Source: a virus. From it: DNA of 25,508 bases. Both the position numbers and the translations under genes were made by a program. Location: IMG/VR virus record IMGVR_UViG_3300029448_000393, positions 1-25,508 of that record; one strand, written 5' to 3'. The notes beneath the pieces were generated by a model that saw only the letters and a program-made list of their open reading frames with translations, did not search any database and was not told the origin of the DNA. This document shows positions 11,392-25,189 of the stretch, one piece after another (the stretch's first letter is position 1; every line of letters begins with the position of its first letter).

Positions 11392-11852
11392 TGCCTAAAT
11401 ATACAGCACAACAAATAGAAGAAAGACAAAATATTTTAGAAGCTCAACAAAAATTAGTACAAGAAAAGTACGAAACAGAACAAGAGCAAGCGCAAATACA
11501 AAAAGAAAATCAACAATTTAATTTAGATAATTCTGTTGATGGTTACTATATACAAGTATTAGGCGATAATGAGTATGGATCACAAATAGGTCCAAATAAA
11601 ATAGATAGTAGTTATGAAATTATAATACCTTTTATTGGTTTAGTAAGTCCGGGTTATGAAATATATATAGAAAGAAACAATGCTGGTGTGCTAGAGCAAA
11701 GAATAAGAAAAGAAAATTTAGGATATAAAGCTGAAAGAAAATTAAATTACCCAAGCATACCAGAACAATTAGATATGATATATCACGATATAGATAAGTG
11801 GAAAGAAACTATAAAACAAATAAAAGATTTACACCCTAAAGGAGATAACTAA
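11391..11852 (+). CDS. Small tail accessory protein (fibre-associated, chaperone-like)
   Basis: A 153-residue protein between two fibre genes. Residues 5-45 form a Gln/Glu/Lys-rich coiled coil. A short beta-type middle follows, and the C-terminus contains [18 protein letters not shown] (about 122-139). That Y-P-S/P-I-x-x-Q-L-D-x-x-Y/W motif is widespread in small phage tail proteins encoded next to fibres, often annotated as tail accessory or assembly proteins. Its molecular role here is not shown by sequence; a fibre assembly factor or a minor tail component are both possible. The start overlaps the upstream fibre stop and its own stop overlaps the next start (TAATG), so it is co-translated with both fibre genes, which supports a shared function. 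Confidence 0.6.
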
Positions 11853-14800
11853 TGGCTATTACTACAGTACACGGTAGAATGGTAACAGATGGTTCTATTG
11901 GAACTGCTGACTTAGATGGTAGTGGTGTAACTACTGGATTTACTGGTGTAACTAAAACAGATAATGGTAATGGTACATTAGATATTATTTTTACTGCTGT
12001 TGGTGGTGCTACATATACTATTACAACTCCTGATTTATCTGGTCCAACTGGAGCTACTGGAAGTGCTGGTGTAGCTGGATCAACAGGTAGTGCTGGCGCT
12101 CAAGGTCCAGCTGGACCAACAGGACCAACAGGACCAGCTGGTACATCTGGACTAACTGTAACAAATTTTTCTGCTGTCAATAATGCTAACAATACAATTA
12201 CGCTTAACTTTACTTTTTCTGATAATAGTACACATACTTTTACATCTCAAAATTTAAAAGGTGATACTGGTGCAACTGGCAACACAGGACCTACTGGTCC
12301 ACAAGGTGATACAGGACCTCAAGGAACAACTGGTAGCACAGGCCCACAAGGAAATACTGGTAATACAGGGCAAACAGGCAGTACTGGACCTCAAGGAATA
12401 CAAGGCATACAAGGTATACAAGGTGAAACTGGAGCAACTGGACCTCAAGGTTCTGGATTAGCAAGTGTTTTAAATGATACTACACCACAGCTAGGTGGTA
12501 GTTTAGATGTTAACGGTCAAAGCATTGTGTCTTTATCAAATGGTAATATTAATCTTTTACCTAATGGTTCTGGCAAAGTTAACCTTGATGGTAATGGATC
12601 TTCTGGTGGTGTTACAATATCAGATGGCTTAGTAGATGTTAGAACAGGCACAGGATCTATTGCTAAAATTAATTTATATTGCGAAAGCTCTAATGCTCAT
12701 GCACAAACAATACAACCTCAACCACATTCAGCAAATGTAAGTAATGAATTAACTTTACCAGCTGGAGGGGATCAGGAATTAGTAGGTACAACTGCAACAC
12801 AAACATTAACAAACAAAACTATTAGTTCTGCTCAATTAACTGGTGCGTTGCCAGCTATAGATGGTTCAGCATTAACAGGAATAGAGTCTGGTGGAGGACA
12901 TGATAGAAACTACACAGCTAGTGGCAGTATCACCGCAGGCAAGCCATTAATCTTAAACGCTAATAATACAGTTACACAAGTCGCTGAAACATCTTCAACT
13001 ATTCCCGCAGGTTTAGGAACTAACTCATCAATAGCAATATCATCATCAGTATATGACCAACAAGTATCAATGGGAGCGACAAATCAATTTATTAGTTTGT
13101 ATACCTTTGCTAATGATACAAAATGTTATTTAACTCCAAATACAATATCAGCAACAGACTTAAAAACTATTACAAGTGGTGTAGAAACTAATTTTGATAC
13201 AGGCGCAGAAAGAAATATTGGTATTATTTATGAACCAAATCAGGGAAAATATGTCGCTTTTCATGTAAATAGTAATAATTATCCTTGTGCAACTGTTATA
13301 GATTTTGTTAGTTCAGGTGCAACAGCAACTTTATCAATAGGCACAACAACTGTACTTGATTCAAATACTATCGCATCAAGTACATTTGATAACGATATGA
13401 TAACTTATGACACATCTGCTCAAAAAATTATTATATCCTTTGTAAGAAGTAACTCGTCAGGATGGACAATGTCAGTAAGTCTATCAGGTTCTACAATTAC
13501 AGCAGGAACACCTATTGCAGTTCCTATGTATGGAAGTTATGTAGGTGGAGCAAACATAACTTGTTCATATTCATCTACTGCTGATAAAACAGTTTATTTA
13601 TATACTGATAATAATACAGAAGATTTATATACTACTGTTGGTACAGTATCAGGTTCATCTTTTACTTTTGGTTCAACTGCTGTTGTTTCAAATTTACCAA
13701 CAGGTAATTTTAATGGTGCTGATGCTTGTGTTGGTGTTGATAATAATGGTGTTGTCGTTTTATCCTATTTAGCTCAAGATATTACACCTGCTTATACATT
13801 ATTTTCACAAGCAGGAACACTTAGCGGAACAACGATAACATGGGGTTCACCATCTCAAGTATCAAATGTTACTTGTTTAGGTAATGCAAAAAATGAATGT
13901 TCCATAGAATCAATAGCATCTGGCAAAATGATAATTACAAGAGCAACTCGAAGTGACAGTCCATCAAATGCAGATGATGGAATTTTTGTTATTGTAACAT
14001 CTTCAGGCACAACTGTTACTAATGGAAGTGTTCAAACTTTTTCAACATCAGCTACAAGATACCCAAGCGTTTCAACAAATTATTCTAAAACACAAGCTGT
14101 TATTAATTATGGAGACTCATCATCAATGGATGTAAATAATATTGTTTATATTGAGTCTCAACAATCAGGTGGTCTAGTTACTAATTTATCAAAAGACAAT
14201 TACTTTGGTATTGCAGCTGAAACTAAAAGCAACGGACAAGATGTAAAGGTAACACGCCCAGGTTCTTTAAACAAAAATCAAAGTGGCATGACCGCAGGTA
14301 AGGATATGTATGTAACTGATGCAGGTCTCATAAAACAACGTACAACGACAACGACTACACTAGCATCAACACCAACTGTATCTGCATTAGTAGAAGATTC
14401 AACATACTATACAAATACCAATAGACTAGGTTCTCAAGCAGTAGCTTATGACTCAAACTCAGGAAGTTATGTCAGAATTATTGGAAACATGGGTAATGAA
14501 TATCCTACTGTACAAGCAGGCACATGGTCTAATGGCGCAATAACTTGGGGAACAGCTACAGTATTGCAATCTCATGCCACAGGAAGTAATGCTCCAAATG
14601 TTATATCGGCAGATGGTAAAGTTATATTTTATTGGATGGCTTTAGTAAGTTCTAATTATTATTTAAATACACAATGGGCTACAATTTCAGGAACAACATT
14701 TACTCTTAATACAGCAGGTATTCAAAATATTGTAACAGCAAATACTACTACTAATAGACAAAGTGGAGTGATGGCTTATGATGTAAATGCTTCAAGATTA

Positions 14801-17095
14801 GTTTATAATTATTATGATTATACTAATAAAAAAGTATATGTAGTAACAGGAGAAATAACATCAACTAGCTTTACTTTTGGTACTCCATTAGAGGTTGATG
14901 ATTGTTTTAATGCCTCTAATAATGCTCATATATCTTCAATAGTTTATGACGCTAGTAAACAAAGAACAGTTTTATTTTATTTACAAAAAGATTCAGGAGT
15001 TGATACTGGTAAACCAAATGCAGTAGTTTTACAAGTTGGCTCATCTACTATAACAAAAGGAACAGCAGTAGAAGTCCTAAATTCAAATATGGAAGTTTCT
15101 ATACCATCTTATGCTATATACGATAGTACAAATCAAAAAGTAATGTTTTTGTGGCGACAAGATTCTCCAAATAGAATGTATTATTCTATCGGTACAGTTA
15201 CAGGCGGTGGAACAAACTCTATATCTTGCACAACCCCTGTTGATTTTGGTGGTGGTTCTAGTGTTGAGGGTATAGGTATGCTTTATGATACAGGAAAATC
15301 ACAAATTCTTTTTCCACATCAAACAGGCAGTCATCCAAATAGGATAGTTACTGTTAATGCCTATACATCAGATGGCTCTACATTAACATTAGCATCTTCA
15401 ACAGCAAGTTCTGGTACTTTTCCTGCGATGGGAAAGGCGTGTGCGTCAGCTTATGGTACAGATAAAGGTAGTTTATTTTATTTTGCTATTGATGGTGAAA
15501 GTAAAAACGGACAAGTTACATCTTACTTTGGCTCAACAACATCAACTGTAGTAAATGGATCGCAGTTTGTAGGTACTGCAAGAAGCGGAACAGACCTAGA
15601 ATTATCTGAGTCACCAACAGAATTAATTGCAATGGCTAATGGTTCTATTACTAAAGGCAAGCCTGTTATTCTAAGAACGGATGGTGACTTTGCTGAAGTT
15701 GGTGGTACAAGTAGTTCAGGAAGTACAGTTAGTCCTGAGACACAACAAATATCTGGTCAACAAAACACCGAAGATAAATTCTATATTGCAGATAATGGAA
15801 ATGGTATTTTTGCTGTTGTTTCAATAACAAGTCACAGAGCAAGAATTATTCTTGGTGAAGATACAGGAACTTCAATAACGTGGGGAAGTGAAGTAACTCT
15901 TGATGATACAAGTGAAAATATTACAGGTGTTTCAGTTTATTATGACTCTGTAGAAGATAAATTTATTGCAACCAATGTAAGTGGTGGCTCACAAAATGTT
16001 TGCTCTTATATTGTATCTTATAGTGGAACAACAGCAACTAAAGGAACACAATCATCTTTATTAGCTTTAGGTTTTCCAAATAGTAACTACGTTTTAGCCT
16101 CAGATTATAACACAACAGATAAAAAAGGAATTGTATGTATTGGTAAAGATACAGGTAAAATGTTTACTGTTACAGTATCAGGAACAACTATAACTCAAAG
16201 TGCTTTATCTTCTCAATTTAGTGGATCAAGCAACTCAGCACAATTTTTTCAAATGGTCTACGATAATACAAATAGTGTTGGTTATATAACTTATAGAAAT
16301 GAGGCAATTTCAGATTATCCTTATATTCAAACATTTACAGTATCAGGAGATACTTTTAGTTTTGGTACTGAAACTGTAATACAATCACTAGCGGCAGATG
16401 GATATGTTGGAGTTGCAGAAGGTTCAGCAGATGGAAAAGGTGTATGTGTAGCATGGAGAAGGTCAGGAACTGGTATTAACTATATTACTCCAACATTTAG
16501 CGGTCTTGTACCAACGATAGGTGGCGTAACTACATTGTCAGGTGGTCAAGTTCCTGATACATCACTTTATTGGGAAGGAGCACAAGTTGTAAACTATAAC
16601 CCTGTGTCACAATCATTTATTCTTGCTTACCAAGATACAAGTGGAAAATATGACATAATTACTAACAATGGTACAGTATCAGGCGGTACTCTTACCTTTA
16701 GTGATTATGATGTTGTATATCCTACAACTAATGCGTCTCAATATTATGCTATAAGCAATCCTACAGGTAAAAATGCAAATAATGTTTTTATAATACAACA
16801 AAGATATAATCAATCTACTTATAAAACAGCAGGTTCAATATGGGGTGCATCTTACAACAATACAACAACCAATTTAACGTCTACAAACTTTATAGGATTT
16901 GCTCAAAATACTGTTGCAGATAATGAAGATGTAAAAGTAAAAGTAATATCACAAAGTGATCAGAATCAAACAGGACTAACAATAGGTTCACAATACTTTG
17001 TTCAAACTGATGGTACTTTGTCAACTACAGCAGGAACTCCATCTGTATTAGGTGGAACTGCATTATCAAGTACAAGTTTATTAATCAAGTCATAA
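11852..17095 (+). CDS. Giant collagen-like / beta-propeller tail adhesin
   Basis: A 1747-residue probable receptor-binding or fibre protein. Two short beta-type units are each followed by Gly-x-y collagen-like runs (residues 64-100 and 137-202). Next comes a motif common in phage fibres ([17 protein letters not shown], near 210) and a [11 protein letters not shown] segment. From about residue 350 to the end there are three blocks of roughly 430-450 residues. Each contains recurrent units of the type Y-D-x-x-x-x-K-x-V/I-x-x-Y/F alternating with G-x-x-x-G-x-x-I/F-T/x-x-G-x, as in beta-propeller blades. Blocks are bracketed by related linker modules near residues 355, 783, 1233 and 1679. The C-terminus ends in a SSTSLLIK sequence. 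An AAGGAGAT ribosome site precedes the ATG. Propeller folding is inferred from the repeat pattern only. Confidence 0.8.
12041..12151 (+). repeat. Collagen-like Gly-x-y repeat, first copy
   Basis: Codes for 12 consecutive Gly-x-y triplets plus one Gly (residues 64-100 of the adhesin), dominated by GPT, GPA and GSA. It follows a beta-type unit (residues 30-63), and the pair is repeated downstream. Such runs form triple-helical shafts in phage fibres, which implies a homotrimer. Confidence 0.85.
12260..12457 (+). repeat. Collagen-like Gly-x-y repeat, second copy, with a 9-base tandem repeat
   Basis: Codes for 22 consecutive Gly-x-y triplets (residues 137-202), rich in GPQ, GNT and GST. It contains three GIQ triplets from a near-perfect 9-base tandem repeat around 12397-12423. 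Low-complexity DNA of this kind is prone to slippage, so copy number may vary between relatives. A long open frame in +1 across it is only a by-product of the repeat. Confidence 0.85.
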
Positions 17096-18815: not shown

Positions 18816-19852
18816 TGCCTATGCCACCTGTACCAGAGGAAGAATTGTTAGAAGTTCTTACTGCTGATGAAAGTTTCAACAACAGATACGAAGCTGCTGA
18901 ATCTTTAGGATTAAAATACGCAACCTATATGCAAAGATTACATAAGGCTAAAAACTTACAACCTGATTTTGAAATACCAGATCTTCCTAATGAAGAGATG
19001 GACATAGAAGAATTAGTACAGACTGTAACAGATAGATACGAAAGAAGAGCTAAAGCAAAAGATGCTCAAGACTGGATTGATATTAAAGTAAATATTGATG
19101 GGCCTATAGGTATACTATGGATGGGAGATCCACACATAGATGATAACTACTGTAACTGGACTAGACTAAGAGAAGATATAAAGCTTATACAATCTAACTC
19201 AGCTATTAAAGGTGCGTCTATAGGTGACGTTCATAATAATTGGATAGGGCGTCTCAGTTTAAAATGTAGCCCTGAGCAAGAGACCACTACGGCACAGACT
19301 TATGCTCTTATACATTGGCTTATAAACAATATGGATCCTCTTATATTAATTAGAGGTAACCATGATTGTTGGACACCGTTTCATAAGGATGCAATGACAT
19401 GGATGTCACAACCTAAAAGCATTACCAATGACTGGCAAGTAAAGTTTAAATTAAATTTTCCTAATGGGTATAGTCTTAGTGTAGATTCTCGTCACGATTT
19501 TCCAGGTCACTCTCAGTATAATCCTCTTCATGCTCAGATGAAAGCTTCTCTTTGGAATAGTGATGCTGATCTGTATATTGCTGGTCATCGTCATAACTGG
19601 GCAATCCAGAAAATAGAACAACGAAATGGGAAAGTTGCTTCGTTAGTTCGGTTAAAAGGATATAAAGATTACGATCAGTATGCTGTTGAGAAAGGGTTTT
19701 CTCAGCAGAAACATGGTCAATCAATACTGCAAGTGATTGATCCATACTCTTCATCAGAGTCAAAACAGAATTTCTTTGAGAATCCTCAAGAAGGTCACGA
19801 CTTTCTTTTGTATCTTCAAGATAAGTATGGTAAAGATCCACATAAGAAGTAA
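18815..19852 (+). CDS. Calcineurin-like metallophosphoesterase with N-terminal helix-turn-helix-like region
   Basis: A 345-residue protein. Residues 1-50 form a small helical unit (RYEAAESLGLKYATYMQRL) resembling a DNA-binding helix-turn-helix. The catalytic domain follows with the classical two-metal motifs: GDPHID (104-109), GDVHNN (137-142), GNHD (181-184), RHDFPGH (226-232) and GHRHN (257-261). These supply the Asp/His/Asn ligands of the calcineurin-like superfamily, so a phosphodiesterase or nuclease acting on nucleic acid or nucleotides is likely; the natural substrate cannot be read from the sequence. Homologues occur in other phages near the end of the late region. The start overlaps the previous stop by one base. 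It is the last + strand gene. Its final 377 bases are also open on the opposite strand as the end of the DnaA-like gene. No T-run terminator follows it. Confidence 0.85.
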   Translation: MPMPPVPEEELLEVLTADESFNNRYEAAESLGLKYATYMQRLHKAKNLQPDFEIPDLPNEEMDIEELVQTVTDRYERRAKAKDAQDWIDIKVNIDGPIGILWMGDPHIDDNYCNWTRLREDIKLIQSNSAIKGASIGDVHNNWIGRLSLKCSPEQETTTAQTYALIHWLINNMDPLILIRGNHDCWTPFHKDAMTWMSQPKSITNDWQVKFKLNFPNGYSLSVDSRHDFPGHSQYNPLHAQMKASLWNSDADLYIAGHRHNWAIQKIEQRNGKVASLVRLKGYKDYDQYAVEKGFSQQKHGQSILQVIDPYSSSESKQNFFENPQEGHDFLLYLQDKYGKDPHKK

Positions 19853-20096
19853 GAATATTTTTATCTAATACTTCTGCTTTCTTACAACCATGCATTATAG
19901 TTGAATGATCTTTGTTAAACTTGTGTCCTATTTGTGTGTAAGATAAGTTAGTAAATTTTCTTGATAAGTAATAAGATATAAATCTAGCGTTGACTATAGC
20001 TTCGGTACGTCTTGAGCTTTTGATTTCATCCCATGAAGTATTGTTATCTTCTAATACTTTATTGATAACTTTGTTAAGTGATTTGTTTTTGAACAT
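19476..20096 (-). CDS. Stand-alone DnaA domain IV (DNA-binding domain) protein with antisense-encoded tail
   Basis: A 206-residue frame. Residues 5-85 match DnaA domain IV, the helix-turn-helix that recognises DnaA boxes: ARFISYYLSRKFTNLS (37-52), IGHKF (56-60), and the signature DHSTIMHGCKK (63-73), where the DH(S/T)T(V/I) segment contacts DNA. The ATPase and other DnaA domains are absent. The start chosen is the ATG at 20096, with AAAGGAA 6 bases before it; an in-frame ATG at 20138 lies next to the terminator T-run and has no ribosome site. Residues from about 82 to 206 are acidic, Ser/His/Gln-rich and lie antisense to the metallophosphoesterase 3' end, so the tail may be overprinted or merely readthrough sequence. 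It could compete with host DnaA or act as a regulator. The gene follows the ssb terminator, so its transcription is uncertain. Confidence 0.8.
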   Translation of the reverse strand: MFKNKSLNKVINKVLEDNNTSWDEIKSSRRTEAIVNARFISYYLSRKFTNLSYTQIGHKFNKDHSTIMHGCKKAEVLDKNILTSYVDLYHTYLEDTKESRDLLEDSQRNSVLTLMKSMDQSLAVLIDHVSAEKTLSQQHTDRNLYILLTELTKQLSHFVVLFSGLPSYDDDQQYTDQHHYSKEKLSSEHEEDYTESDLENRDENLH

Positions 20097-20139
20097 AAGA
20101 TTTCCTTTATAACATTTATATTTTTTTTTGGTACGCACT

Positions 20140-20180
20140 AAAAAAATAACCAGAGATCGCCGTTAAGAAATCTCTGGTTA
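20140..20180 (-). terminator. Rho-independent terminator after ssb
   Basis: Perfect 11-base inverted repeat (TAACCAGAGAT at 20147-20157, ATCTCTGGTTA at 20170-20180) with a 12-base loop. Read on the - strand it is followed by seven T (20146-20140). It would end the long leftward operon after ssb and before the DnaA-like gene. On the + strand there is no T-run, so it is directional. Confidence 0.8.
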
Positions 20181-20203
20181 ATAACTTCTAAGACACAATG
20201 ATA

Positions 20204-20243: not shown

Positions 20244-20663
20244 TTAGAACGGTATATCACTATCATGTTTTTTTGATTCTATAGCTGGTGTTGATGCAGA
20301 CGTGTCTGTGTTTGCGTCAGATTTTTTGTCAAGAATCATAATCTCTCCACCAAATGACAGCTCAACACTATACATCTTAATTGTTTTACCATCATCTGTG
20401 TCCATCTTATAGTACTTAAGATCTCCTTTGATGTATAGCTTAGCACCTTTCTTTATATATGGAATTATATATTTATCTATTGTGCTTTCATTCCAGACTA
20501 CTACTCTATGCCATAATGTTTCTTCATCATTAGCACCAGTCTTAATCTTTGTTGCTATAGAAAGTACGGCATACTTCTTGCCGTTGTTTGTTTCTTTAAT
20601 CTCTGGATCATTCCCTAGATTACCTATTAGTTCTGTTGTTGCAAGTGTACCTGAGTAACTCAT
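20244..20663 (-). CDS. ssb: Single-stranded DNA-binding protein
   Basis: A 139-residue SSB. The OB-fold shows the usual order: start with IGNLGNDPEI (13-22), a K-x-x-x-x-S-I-A-T strand, then LWHRVVVWN (50-58), and YIKKGAKLYIKGDL (about 69-82). A Ser/Asp/Thr-rich linker ends in DSDIPF, equivalent to the DDDIPF tip through which bacterial SSB recruits partner proteins. It coats single-stranded DNA in replication and recombination. The start overlaps the upstream stop by four bases (ATGA), coupling it to the annealing protein and, through that, to the exonuclease. Family and C-terminal tip are clear. Length is shorter than E. coli SSB (178 residues), because of a short linker. Confidence 0.92.
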   Translation of the reverse strand: MSYSGTLATTELIGNLGNDPEIKETNNGKKYAVLSIATKIKTGANDEETLWHRVVVWNESTIDKYIIPYIKKGAKLYIKGDLKYYKMDTDDGKTIKMYSVELSFGGEIMILDKKSDANTDTSASTPAIESKKHDSDIPF

Positions 20664-21074: not shown

Positions 21075-21974
21075 TTATCCTTTTAGTCTTATTGATAGGT
21101 CATTTCTTTTATTACGGCTGACCACAACACCGTTGCAAGTAACAGACTTTGCGTCATCTGGTACTAATTCTTTGAGAGCTTCGGCTGTTTGTTTGCGTCG
21201 ATCCTCAGACTCTTTGGCAGTCTGATGCTCGACTTTATAATCGTAACTTAAGTTGTTAAACTCATTACCAAACGCTTCGTCTTTCCTCTCATCAAGATTA
21301 TATATCACACCTTTGTCTGTTGCAATCTTTAACTTCTTGTTTATATTATCTTTTGTCCAGACAGGAAGCGCTCTACTAAACTCTTCGTCATCCATCATCT
21401 CTTGTTTAAACCAATCATCAGTCTGGAAATTTTCTATTAGATCTATTATATCTTTGCATCTATCATAATAAGTTTCAATAAATTCAGAGTCTCTATATAC
21501 AGTACAATAATCATGTGATGCATTACCAAATATACAAGAGAATATTATTACTTCTTCACCAGATACCATCATATGATGTTGTAATTGTGGATAATAATAA
21601 GCCATTGCTTTGTCTAATGTATTACGTTCATTAGTGTGTTTAACTTCTACAATATATTCATTATAAACAGCGTCTACTGTACTTACTAATCTACCTTGAT
21701 AACGTTTAAAATGTACTTGTTCAGTTAATACTTTTGGACCTAAGATATTCCAATCTCTGTTAAGTTTTTTCTTTAACCATTCCAGATGGAATGACTCAGT
21801 TAATATACCTAACTGTACTGGTAGCACAGCAGACAAATCATCTGGATCTTTGAGAAAGAATTTTTCTTTCATCATGTTGGTTATCTTTCCGGTGGCTATA
21901 CTAATAGCATCACTGCTACCTATTCTTGTACTGTAGTATAGCTGTCGTTCTCCTTCTTTATATTCATAGTTCAT
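21075..21974 (-). CDS. YqaJ-like viral recombinase exonuclease (PD-(D/E)xK)
   Basis: A 299-residue nuclease. Visible motifs in order: R-x-IGSSDA (17-23), corresponding to the G-x-G/S-S-D-A helix of YqaJ enzymes; a G-x-x-x-E (56-60) with the first acidic ligand; STVDA (98-102) then IVEVKH (108-113), giving Asp101 and the Glu110-x-Lys112 core; and YYPQLQHHMMV (127-137), the Q-x-x-x-Y-type helix of this family. This is the lambda exonuclease fold, which degrades one strand from double-strand ends to yield 3' tails for annealing. Residues beyond about 215 form a charged region rich in Lys and Glu, probably helical. It lies directly before the annealing protein and ssb, as expected of a recombination cassette. 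The ATG is 3 bases after the upstream stop with GGAG before it. Confidence 0.85.
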   Translation of the reverse strand: MNYEYKEGERQLYYSTRIGSSDAISIATGKITNMMKEKFFLKDPDDLSAVLPVQLGILTESFHLEWLKKKLNRDWNILGPKVLTEQVHFKRYQGRLVSTVDAVYNEYIVEVKHTNERNTLDKAMAYYYPQLQHHMMVSGEEVIIFSCIFGNASHDYCTVYRDSEFIETYYDRCKDIIDLIENFQTDDWFKQEMMDDEEFSRALPVWTKDNINKKLKIATDKGVIYNLDERKDEAFGNEFNNLSYDYKVEHQTAKESEDRRKQTAEALKELVPDDAKSVTCNGVVVSRNKRNDLSIRLKG

Positions 21975-21977
21975 TGT

Positions 21978-22445
21978 TTACTCCTTAAGTTGTTGGCATA
22001 CTTGTTTATGTAAAGTGATTAAGAATTTTTTAAGTATGCGTTTTGGTATGTCTACTTCGTTACTGTACTTAATCAATACAGCAATAGTAGGGTAGTCACC
22101 TGTAGTTATTACTTTAGTACAGGCATATTCCAAAGCTACTAAACTGTATTCTTTTAGTGCTTCGTAATATAAGTTAATAAAATTATCAGCATCGTTATCT
22201 GGTATTATCTTGGGCCAAAGTAAAAATACTTTAGACAACAGCTCAACAAATGCTTCTTCATCTAATGGTACTAATAACTTAGTAACATTAAATAGATCTG
22301 CTTCAACATCATCTAAGGCATTACTTAGTTCTGTCTGAGATAGAGATGATGGTATCTCTATCTGTGCCAGAAACTTTACTCCTTCCAGATATTGCGTTGC
22401 GAATTTTGTCAGCGGCATCCGTGCTTTCTGCAACAGGGTATTCAT
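21978..22445 (-). CDS. Helical protein of unknown function, primosome-linked; start uncertain
   Basis: The frame is open from 22535, but its first part overlaps the primosome-like gene in another frame and is probably shadow. Credible starts: ATG at 22445 (weak AGGA), ATG at 22418 (no ribosome site), or a CTG at 22370, which has a strong AAGGAG exactly 8 bases upstream; there is no ATG/GTG/TTG at that spot. Starting at CTG the protein is 130 residues, all helical, with a motif (LSQTELSNALDDVEADL) and a fold-like spread of Leu. A GDYPTIAVLIKY stretch near the end recalls phage primosome/helicase-loader-associated proteins, for which similar 'FPS/YPT' endings occur. Function is not established. 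Downstream is the YqaJ nuclease with a 3-base gap. Confidence 0.6.
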   Translation of the reverse strand: MNTLLQKARMPLTKFATQYLEGVKFLAQIEIPSSLSQTELSNALDDVEADLFNVTKLLVPLDEEAFVELLSKVFLLWPKIIPDNDADNFINLYYEALKEYSLVALEYACTKVITTGDYPTIAVLIKYSNEVDIPKRILKKFLITLHKQVCQQLKE

Positions 22446-22695
22446 CTGTCCATCTTCCTGATTGTAGCCAGTTGTTTGCGTGCTGTGTGTACTGATTTGA
22501 TTCTTTAATAAATTTTTTGTATCGTCTTGCTCCATCTATTATCTCCTCCGATGTTGCATCACCATCTTGTATTGCTAATACAAAGTAGTATTGTGCTGAC
22601 CACTTGTTAGTATGTAGGGGGTATTGTTCCCAGAAAGAATTAAACTCTGATTCTAAGTTAGCCTTCTTTAGGTCTTTTGGTTTTAATATTTTCAT
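22321..22695 (-). CDS. Primosome / replication-initiator-like protein (DnaT/O C-terminal-like domain, putative)
   Basis: A 124-residue protein. The core contains FNSFWEQYPLHTNKWSAQYY (18-37) and YKKFIKESNQYTQHANNWL (59-77), then GRWTDEY. This F-x-x-F-W-x-x-Y-P-x-x-x-x-K-x-x-A ... Y-x-x-x-A-x-x-W-L-x-x-x-R-W pattern is frequent in the C-terminal parts of phage replication initiators and helicase-loading proteins. Here it stands alone without an N-terminal winged helix, so it may act with a partner, perhaps the downstream gene, at the primosome. The start is the second of two ATGs (22698, 22695), with AGAGG spaced 6 bases from the latter. The gene overlaps the XRE regulator by 38 bases and its stop lies inside the next gene. 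Confidence 0.65.
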   Translation of the reverse strand: MKILKPKDLKKANLESEFNSFWEQYPLHTNKWSAQYYFVLAIQDGDATSEEIIDGARRYKKFIKESNQYTQHANNWLQSGRWTDEYPVAESTDAADKIRNAISGRSKVSGTDRDTIISISDRTK

Positions 22696-22945
22696 CATGT
22701 TCCTCTATGTTTATTCTACACTGCAAAGCAGTAGCCCATGATGTAAGATTAAATGCACCTGGACTACGATCTCCACACTCCCACTTAGATACAAGACCAT
22801 CGGCATTGCCCATTACATGGTCAAGGTCAGACTGTGATAAGCATAACTCTTCACGTCTAACCTTAAACATATAGACTAATTCCCAATACCAGTCTGGCTT
22901 GTATTGTTTAGTCTGCCTTGTACTTATCCATGATTGTAGATCCAT
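22658..22945 (-). CDS. XRE-family (Cro/CI-like) helix-turn-helix regulator
   Basis: A 95-residue DNA-binding protein. Residues 26-60 read FKVRREELCLSQSDLDHVMG then LVSKWECGDRSPG, the classic XRE pattern: R-x-x-x-x-L-S-Q-x-x-L then a recognition helix with V-S-x-W-E. The short C-terminus carries no recognisable dimerisation or cleavage domain, so this is not a full lambda CI. It probably controls phage or host promoters. It has no ribosome site: the bases before the ATG are TATGCTTAGCC. A TTGCCT-17-TATGCT pair just upstream would place the transcript start at the A of the ATG. It overlaps the following gene by 38 bases. A start at Met26 would cut into the first helix, so the ATG at 22945 is preferred. 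Confidence 0.8.
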   Translation of the reverse strand: MDLQSWISTRQTKQYKPDWYWELVYMFKVRREELCLSQSDLDHVMGNADGLVSKWECGDRSPGAFNLTSWATALQCRINIEEHDENIKTKRPKEG

Positions 22946-24497: not shown

Positions 24498-24891
24498 CAA
24501 TCATTCCTTTATTAAGTATTCTTCTGCGACCTTGACGAGTCAAACCAAAGACTCGTTGCTCACATCCAGATAATCCTTTACGTTTCATTACTGGTATTTC
24601 ACCAGCAGTTCTAACGTTACCATTCCAGTTAGCTTGGAAATCATGGAACACAAATGCGTACCCACCTTTAACAAGCTGACTTAATCTTGATGATACAGAC
24701 ACTTCTTTAGATGATATGTCATAAGCTATGTGTGAAAAGGTGCTGCCTCTATGACCAGCACGCCACATACTATGTAAAATTTTATCATCAAGAGTAACTT
24801 TAACTTTATTCTTAGATGTTACTGGATCTGTCTTGCGGTAAGGTGTAGCTGTATATAGTTCAACTACTTTGTCATCATAATCTACTATCAT
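24478..24891 (-). CDS. Winged helix-turn-helix DNA-binding protein
   Basis: A 137-residue protein. Residues 10-25 contain the T-D-P-x-T-S sequence often seen at the head of small phage winged-helix proteins. Residues 34-80 show the fold: helix DDKILHSMWRAG, G-x-T-x-x-x-I-A (50-56), recognition helix VSVSSRLSQLVKGGY (64-78), then a wing that resumes at RVFGLTRQGRRRI (113-125). The arrangement is MarR/winged-helix-like. It is the second gene after the strong early promoter, so an early transcription regulator or replication-linked DNA-binding factor is likely. The start overlaps the upstream stop by one base, with AGAAAAG-type purine sequence before it. No enzymatic motif is seen. Confidence 0.65.
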   Translation of the reverse strand: MIVDYDDKVVELYTATPYRKTDPVTSKNKVKVTLDDKILHSMWRAGHRGSTFSHIAYDISSKEVSVSSRLSQLVKGGYAFVFHDFQANWNGNVRTAGEIPVMKRKGLSGCEQRVFGLTRQGRRRILNKGMIDDDTRR

Positions 24892-25136
24892 TACTTTTCT
24901 CCATTATCTTCTGTTGCAAGGTCATCATTCATGGCGTTAATAAAACCACCAATCATTAGACCTTTGTGTGCCTCACTAAGTTCTGGGTTATTTAATATAT
25001 CTATTACATTACCCATTACATGGTCGACATACTTGGTCTTGTATTCATCAAGATAACCACCGTTATCTTTGATTACTTTGTTCTTCATGCCAGTAACTAA
25101 AGCGTCAGCTGGACTTGGTATTTTTTTATCAGTCAT
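24891..25136 (-). CDS. First gene of the leftward operon, unknown function
   Basis: An 81-residue acidic, helical protein (YVDHVMGNVIDILNNPELSE and HKGLMIGGFINAMNDDL segments). It has no recognised family, cysteines or membrane segment. It is the first gene after the promoter at 25161-25189, with a short 5' leader holding AGGAGA and spacing of about 6 bases to the ATG, so it should be expressed strongly and early. First-position small phage proteins often disarm a host function, but no evidence points to a target here. Confidence 0.6.
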   Translation of the reverse strand: MTDKKIPSPADALVTGMKNKVIKDNGGYLDEYKTKYVDHVMGNVIDILNNPELSEAHKGLMIGGFINAMNDDLATEDNGEK

Positions 25137-25160: not shown

Positions 25161-25189
25161 ATTATAGCACTATACACATTAATCCACAA
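25161..25189 (-). promoter_or_regulatory. Strong sigma70-type promoter of the leftward operon
   Basis: On the - strand: TTGTGG (25189-25184), a 17-base spacer, and a perfect TATAAT (25166-25161). The transcript would start near 25154, giving a short leader with AGGAGA before the ATG at 25136. Two DnaA-box-like 9-mers lie within the -35/spacer, and a 14-base palindrome lies just upstream. Confidence 0.75.
25170..25188 (+). promoter_or_regulatory. Two DnaA-box-like 9-mers in the promoter
   Basis: CTATACACA (25170-25178) and TAATCCACA (25180-25188) each differ by one base from the DnaA-box consensus TTAT(A/C)CACA, are on the same strand and one base apart. They overlap the -35 and spacer. Relevance is suggested by the phage-encoded DnaA domain IV; binding is inferred. 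Confidence 0.4.

Follow-up and report, generated by a model that had tools for sequence, protein, structure and literature searches.

The DNA stretch analysed here (the window) covers 25.5 kb of the genome of a short-tailed marine phage. Its late genes lie on the plus strand and extend up to position 19852; its early genes fill the minus strand, starting at the right end of the window and reaching down to 19476. Four relatives of this phage are circularly complete, with sizes of 34.5–37.0 kb and closure via end repeats of 77–123 bp. A SAR11 bacterium is the likely host, since a comparison of terminases puts Pelagibacter phage EXVC031P Hodr closest among cultured phages, with a TerL identity of 65.7% over 99%. 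The public record titled EXVC031P Hodr (OQ414635.1; L085) carries locus tags that read 'EXVC032PBaldr', its labels thus being inconsistent. Gene annotation recognised no polymerase, helicase, primase or integrase gene in the phage, which argues that the host replisome must be used. Among the other products, a 1747-aa protein encoded at 11852–17095 (+) has collagen-like GXT repeats close to its N-terminus and is probably a tail fibre.

The features discussed below are collected in Table 1. The early gene of interest encodes a stand-alone DnaA domain IV followed by a C-terminal tail. It comes last in the early operon, after the exonuclease, recombinase and SSB genes, a slot that is common to the uncultured outgroup phage G013 and to HTVC010P gp46. 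A Shine-Dalgarno-like AAAGGAA precedes its start, and an alternative in-frame GTG at 20138 is positioned directly behind the terminator-like hairpin. The ORF resembling replication-initiation and primosomal proteins is more likely than the DnaA-like protein to be the phage's own initiator, judging by family matches. As called, it shares 215 bases with the ORF at 21978–22535 (−), and the true start of the downstream ORF of the two is probably later.

Table 1. Positions of the features in the window that are discussed in the text.
Feature	Position	Strand	Remarks
Calcineurin-like metallophosphatase gene, 345 aa	18815..19852	+	Convergent late gene; tail overprinted on it
ORF, 206 aa, stand-alone DnaA domain IV and C-terminal tail	19476..20096	−	ATG at 20096, stop at 19476
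C-terminal tail (about residues 82–206)	19476..19852	−	Antisense to metallophosphatase 3′ end
DnaA domain IV (Bac_DnaA_C), residues 8–73	19878..20075	−	Profile, phmmer and fold
Terminator-like hairpin and T run	20140..20181	−	Between SSB and DnaA-IV genes
SSB gene	20244..20663	−	Final gene ahead of hairpin
RecE/YqaJ-like exonuclease	21075..21974	−	phrog_434
Replication-initiation/primosomal-protein-like ORF	22321..22698	−	phrog_270, phrog_9327
81-aa early gene of unknown function	24891..25136	−	Downstream of box pair; opens stretch leading to replication/recombination genes
Promoter-like element	25161..25189	−	TTGTGG (25189–25184), 17 nt, TATAAT (25166–25161), TGC just ahead of −10; read by eye
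DnaA-box-like site 1, CTATACACA	25170..25178	+	
DnaA-box-like site 2, TAATCCACA	25180..25188	+	Oriented like site 1, at a distance of 10 bp

The sequence-only reading had placed a DnaA DNA-binding domain devoid of the ATPase at 19476–20096 without naming a strand. The coordinates are right, the strand is minus, and profile, fold and recognition residues support a stand-alone phage DnaA domain IV. Pfam PF08299 (Bac_DnaA_C) matches residues 8–73 with 73.1 bits (E 1.9e-20), above its gathering threshold of 31.5; the match to TIGR00362 (DnaA) is confined to the domain-IV columns and, at 62.7 bits, stays below the equivalog cut-off of 343.9. Structure prediction likewise assigns the N-terminal part to domain IV: the AlphaFold model has a pLDDT of about 92 across residues 1–90, and its best Foldseek matches (probability 1.00, TM-score normalised to target 0.73–0.76) are 3pvp and 1j1v, the DnaA DNA-binding-domain structures of M. 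tuberculosis and E. coli that phmmer also retrieves. The AAA+ domain (PF00308) was absent from the window and from the four complete relatives in profile searches, in agreement with the lack of an ATPase domain claimed earlier. No PHROGs family was found for the protein, and scans of species genomes returned no bacterial relatives of it.

In bacterial DnaA, D433-H434-T435 read the CACA half of the DnaA box via the major groove, while R399 reads the TTA half from the minor groove. The base-recognising residues of the E. coli protein, R399, P423, D433, H434, T435 and H439 (PMC7561715), correspond to R30, T54, D63, H64, S65 and H69 of the phage protein, so that four of the six positions are identical (R, D, H and H), one is conservatively replaced (T435 by S65) and one is changed (P423 to T54). 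In clades B–D of the family, defined below, the position of H439 is occupied by N or S. The phage protein shares with bacterial domain IV (1j1v, 3pvp) the fold, comprising a basic loop and a helix-turn-helix, and most base-reading residues, but it differs in these two substitutions, in the lack of domains I–III and in its new tail.

Sequence-specific duplex binding by DnaA resides in domain IV alone (PMC5835720). Together with the largely kept recognition residues, this would suit a take-over of the host, in which the free domain occupies boxes at the host oriC or at host promoters and thereby blocks DnaA-ATP assembly and initiation. The set of recognised phage genes would also fit, since a phage that has no polymerase, helicase or integrase of its own must divert the host replisome. 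However, such a block is not needed for using the host replisome, and the relative Hodr has after its SSB gene an unrelated small helix-turn-helix protein, read as LexA-like, and no domain IV. A take-over of this kind also does not predict the conserved box pair that the phage itself carries, which would then serve only for autoregulation or as a sensor of host DnaA. We consider it unlikely.

Stand-alone domain-IV proteins of phages are already known, and DnaA has been reported in all HTVC010P-related phages (PMC6811365); what appears to be new, from the comparisons made here, are two features, the antisense tail and the conserved box pair. In Pelagibacter phage HTVC010P, gp46 (YP_007517744.1) shares domain IV, is too short for an AAA+ domain and, like the window gene, is the last of a minus-strand operon adjoining convergent genes. 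It differs in being a 177-aa 'hypothetical protein' whose domain is C-terminal, behind an N-terminal part. No annotated gene lies opposite its coding sequence, and a tandem box pair was not found in that phage. Proteins named 'Chromosomal replication initiator, DnaA C-terminal' from uncultured Caudovirales in BFVD are likewise stand-alone domains IV of 90–200 aa, but the matches span the domain only, full-length TM-scores are low and the tails are unrelated as far as seen. The short PRK06030 hypothetical proteins of NCBIfam (NF004686, NF004688) also have a DnaA-IV-like helix-turn-helix, yet the phage protein scores far under the family cut-offs and is not a member.

The closest parallel outside the family is offered by the outgroup G013 (locus L079), with which the window's phage shares the slot after the recombination genes, a related metallophosphatase (34% identical) and a related terminase. 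The 103-aa domain-IV protein of G013, however, ends about 30 residues past the domain, 1.5 kb from the metallophosphatase gene, and shows neither tail, overlap nor tandem pair. The sequence-only reading had noted that the C-terminal addition has no counterpart, which is true and is accounted for by antisense overprinting of the neighbouring metallophosphatase gene. The tail lies opposite the final ~125 codons (about 375 bp) of this gene. Position 1 of the tail codons faces position 1 of the metallophosphatase codons and position 2 faces their wobble base, so that nearly every synonymous metallophosphatase change in the overlap alters the tail. The tail sequence varies between clades. In 22 of 22 loci whose metallophosphatase is 68–100% identical, the same antisense frame is open and continuous with domain IV; these loci comprise 18 distinct sequences in four clades, A (window-like), B, C and D. 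Metallophosphatases of only 29–30% identity (L037–L039) are without such a frame, and domain IV is absent from their records. Because the domain of the outgroup is tail-less, the simplest account is that the reading frame of the domain-IV gene became extended into the convergent metallophosphatase gene and so acquired the tail; the tail thus looks overprinted, with the direction suggested by G013. AlphaFold predicts helices at residues 105–132 and 142–163 of the tail with moderate confidence and disorder for the last 44 residues (SMDQSLAVLIDHVSAEK is an example peptide from tail residues 85–206). Two weak tail matches, one with an acyltransferase family and one with chain 7pk0, were dropped as chance, since neither reached its threshold and this region runs antisense to another gene.

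Alternatively, the tail may be non-functional, the domain-IV gene having lost its stop and the frame being open by chance or owing to constraints on the metallophosphatase. This explanation covers the tail alone and is compatible with any functional reading of the protein. Single-gene synonymous shuffles leave the antisense frame open in 0.5–5% of cases, which makes the single-genome result weak evidence of tail coding, and both the predicted disorder at the C-terminal end and the sensitivity of the tail to synonymous changes would be in keeping with a dispensable extension. Yet the frame is open in all four clades, between which as many as about 45% of the synonymous codons are different. In a cross-clade permutation, codon columns with identical amino-acid patterns were swapped, which preserves relatedness and protein sequence and takes no account of codon context; against this null, 0 antisense stops were observed in the 18 sequences as compared with a mean of 53 (sd 17), a count reached in none of 5000 permutations, the null expectation in the overlap being about 6 stop columns. 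Permuting inside the overlap only gave P 0.002 for stops, and the similarity of the non-stop antisense residues was 2.70 versus 2.34 under the null (P 0.0007). The same frame upstream in the metallophosphatase gene, a within-gene control, showed an excess of neither openness nor similarity. The two other antisense frames in the overlap contain 113 and 266 stops, and across clades A–C (18 shared genes, 8945 codons) the overlap is the only run of at least 113 codons that is open in the frame of the tail in all three clades. In each of the eight comparisons between clades, the metallophosphatase gene shows reduced synonymous differences within the overlap; P is <0.05 for only two of these pairs, and the pairs are not independent of one another. 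In the overlap, both reading frames are therefore open and kept in diverged relatives to a degree above chance, as is expected of antisense overlapping genes. On these comparisons, the case for selection on the openness of the tail frame is strong and that for weak constraint on the tail residues is moderate, and a tail devoid of function appears improbable. That the tail is a working newborn domain, whose helical part pairs two molecules on tandem boxes and which makes both strands of the overlap encode a needed protein, may be put forward tentatively. In the portal-like gene of the complete relative G003, outside the window (rotated coordinates 202–1749, +), a 160-codon antisense run is also open in clades A–C; it lies in a frame where codon structure commonly yields long runs and is joined to no known domain.

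A candidate target of the protein lies ahead of the early operon, inside the segment 25160–25215 flagged by the sequence-only reading, which had offered a repressor among the possible functions. Two DnaA-box-like sites stand there in tandem, and TAATCCACA and TAATTCACA are found at the corresponding place in clades B and C. The tandem pair is present in every clade A–C locus that covers the place and occurs nowhere else in those loci, as compared with 0–0.007 expected per genome; the clade D contigs end short of it. In the box block, 16 of 20 alignment columns are invariant, versus 5 of 76 just before it. A search of the viral collection with the block's 18 fixed bases returned 26 contigs, 25 of which belong to the window's phage family and carry the block at the same place. 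The one remaining match, L104 (7279–7300), is an unrelated contig in which the 18-base tandem motif is followed by TGTGTATAATTACACA and may be another regulator's operator. On the minus strand the block covers the −35 and the spacer of a promoter-like element; the extended −10-like part of this element comes next, and the 81-aa gene starts 25 nt further along. This element is a weak consensus match with a poor −35 and is absent from the list of a stricter promoter scan. Box positions over the −35 and spacer are typical for repression, and the conserved pair lends support to the repressor among the functions offered by the sequence-only reading. In the tandem boxes TAA or CTA stands in place of the consensus TTA, so their affinity may be modest. 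The tandem-pair operator is not general, as no such pair accompanies domain IV in G013 or HTVC010P. Among other candidates, a triple ATCCAC(A/G) within 30 bp (G003 rotated 31888–31917), immediately ahead of a 221-aa early gene, was rejected as a family operator because G001 lacks the cluster, and a DnaA-box-like site between the SSB and DnaA-IV genes of clade B was dropped, not being conserved in clade A.

The two further roles proposed earlier, a block of the host oriC and binding at a phage origin, acquired no separate support. DnaA boxes are not enriched in the phage: genome-wide, 6 were counted and 5.8 expected. As an origin factor, the protein would bind phage boxes and help to load a helicase at the phage origin together with an O/DnaD-like protein. 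The position of the gene among replication genes would agree with such a role, as would the habit of annotators of naming such proteins DnaA (PMC6811365). Besides the missing enrichment and AAA+ domain, however, no iterons were found in the early region, and the GC skew turns at about 25.5 kb and in the divergent region at 32–33 kb (rotated coordinates), a pattern that does not mark out the box pair. This role seems somewhat less probable than the block of host initiation.

We favour, at a probability of roughly 45%, a transcription regulator made of domain IV, lacking the initiator ATPase, that exerts feedback on the early operon. Two molecules would bind the box pair side by side, 10 bp apart and on one face of the helix, perhaps held together by their helical tails, and would shut the promoter leading into the replication/recombination operon; activation is less likely. 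The stable hairpin stands at the corresponding place in clades A–D and in the outgroup, with differing sequences and, in clades A–C, a T run. As a terminator or attenuator it may cause the regulator, made last in the early operon, to appear late and at a low level, so that negative feedback would be delayed and early transcription turned down with time. Convergent late transcription, which would cross the whole DnaA-IV gene antisense, would then take over. By lowering expression of the gene, the hairpin would also count against feedback. Furthermore, the intended ligand of the pair could be host DnaA. The sites resemble generic DnaA boxes, and boxes of this kind mediate the repression of promoters by E. 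coli DnaA (PMC5835720); host DnaA might thus tie early phage transcription to the host cycle, with the phage domain IV acting as an anti-DnaA that relieves this control by competition. Both proteins would, however, share the sites, and relief requires a binder that itself leaves the promoter unblocked; this is the least probable of the roles considered.

Stand-alone DnaA-IV proteins are common in phages yet, as far as we found, unstudied: a full-text search, with subscription papers outside its scope, returned no study of their function, which is weak evidence of absence. The window's phage family supplies a candidate target site, which makes the role of these proteins directly testable. Long antisense coding overlaps under selection have rarely been demonstrated, and the four diverged clades, the tail-less outgroup and the within-gene control allow such an overlap to be tested here. 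The case shows how a protein may acquire a new half that is encoded on the strand opposite a neighbouring gene.
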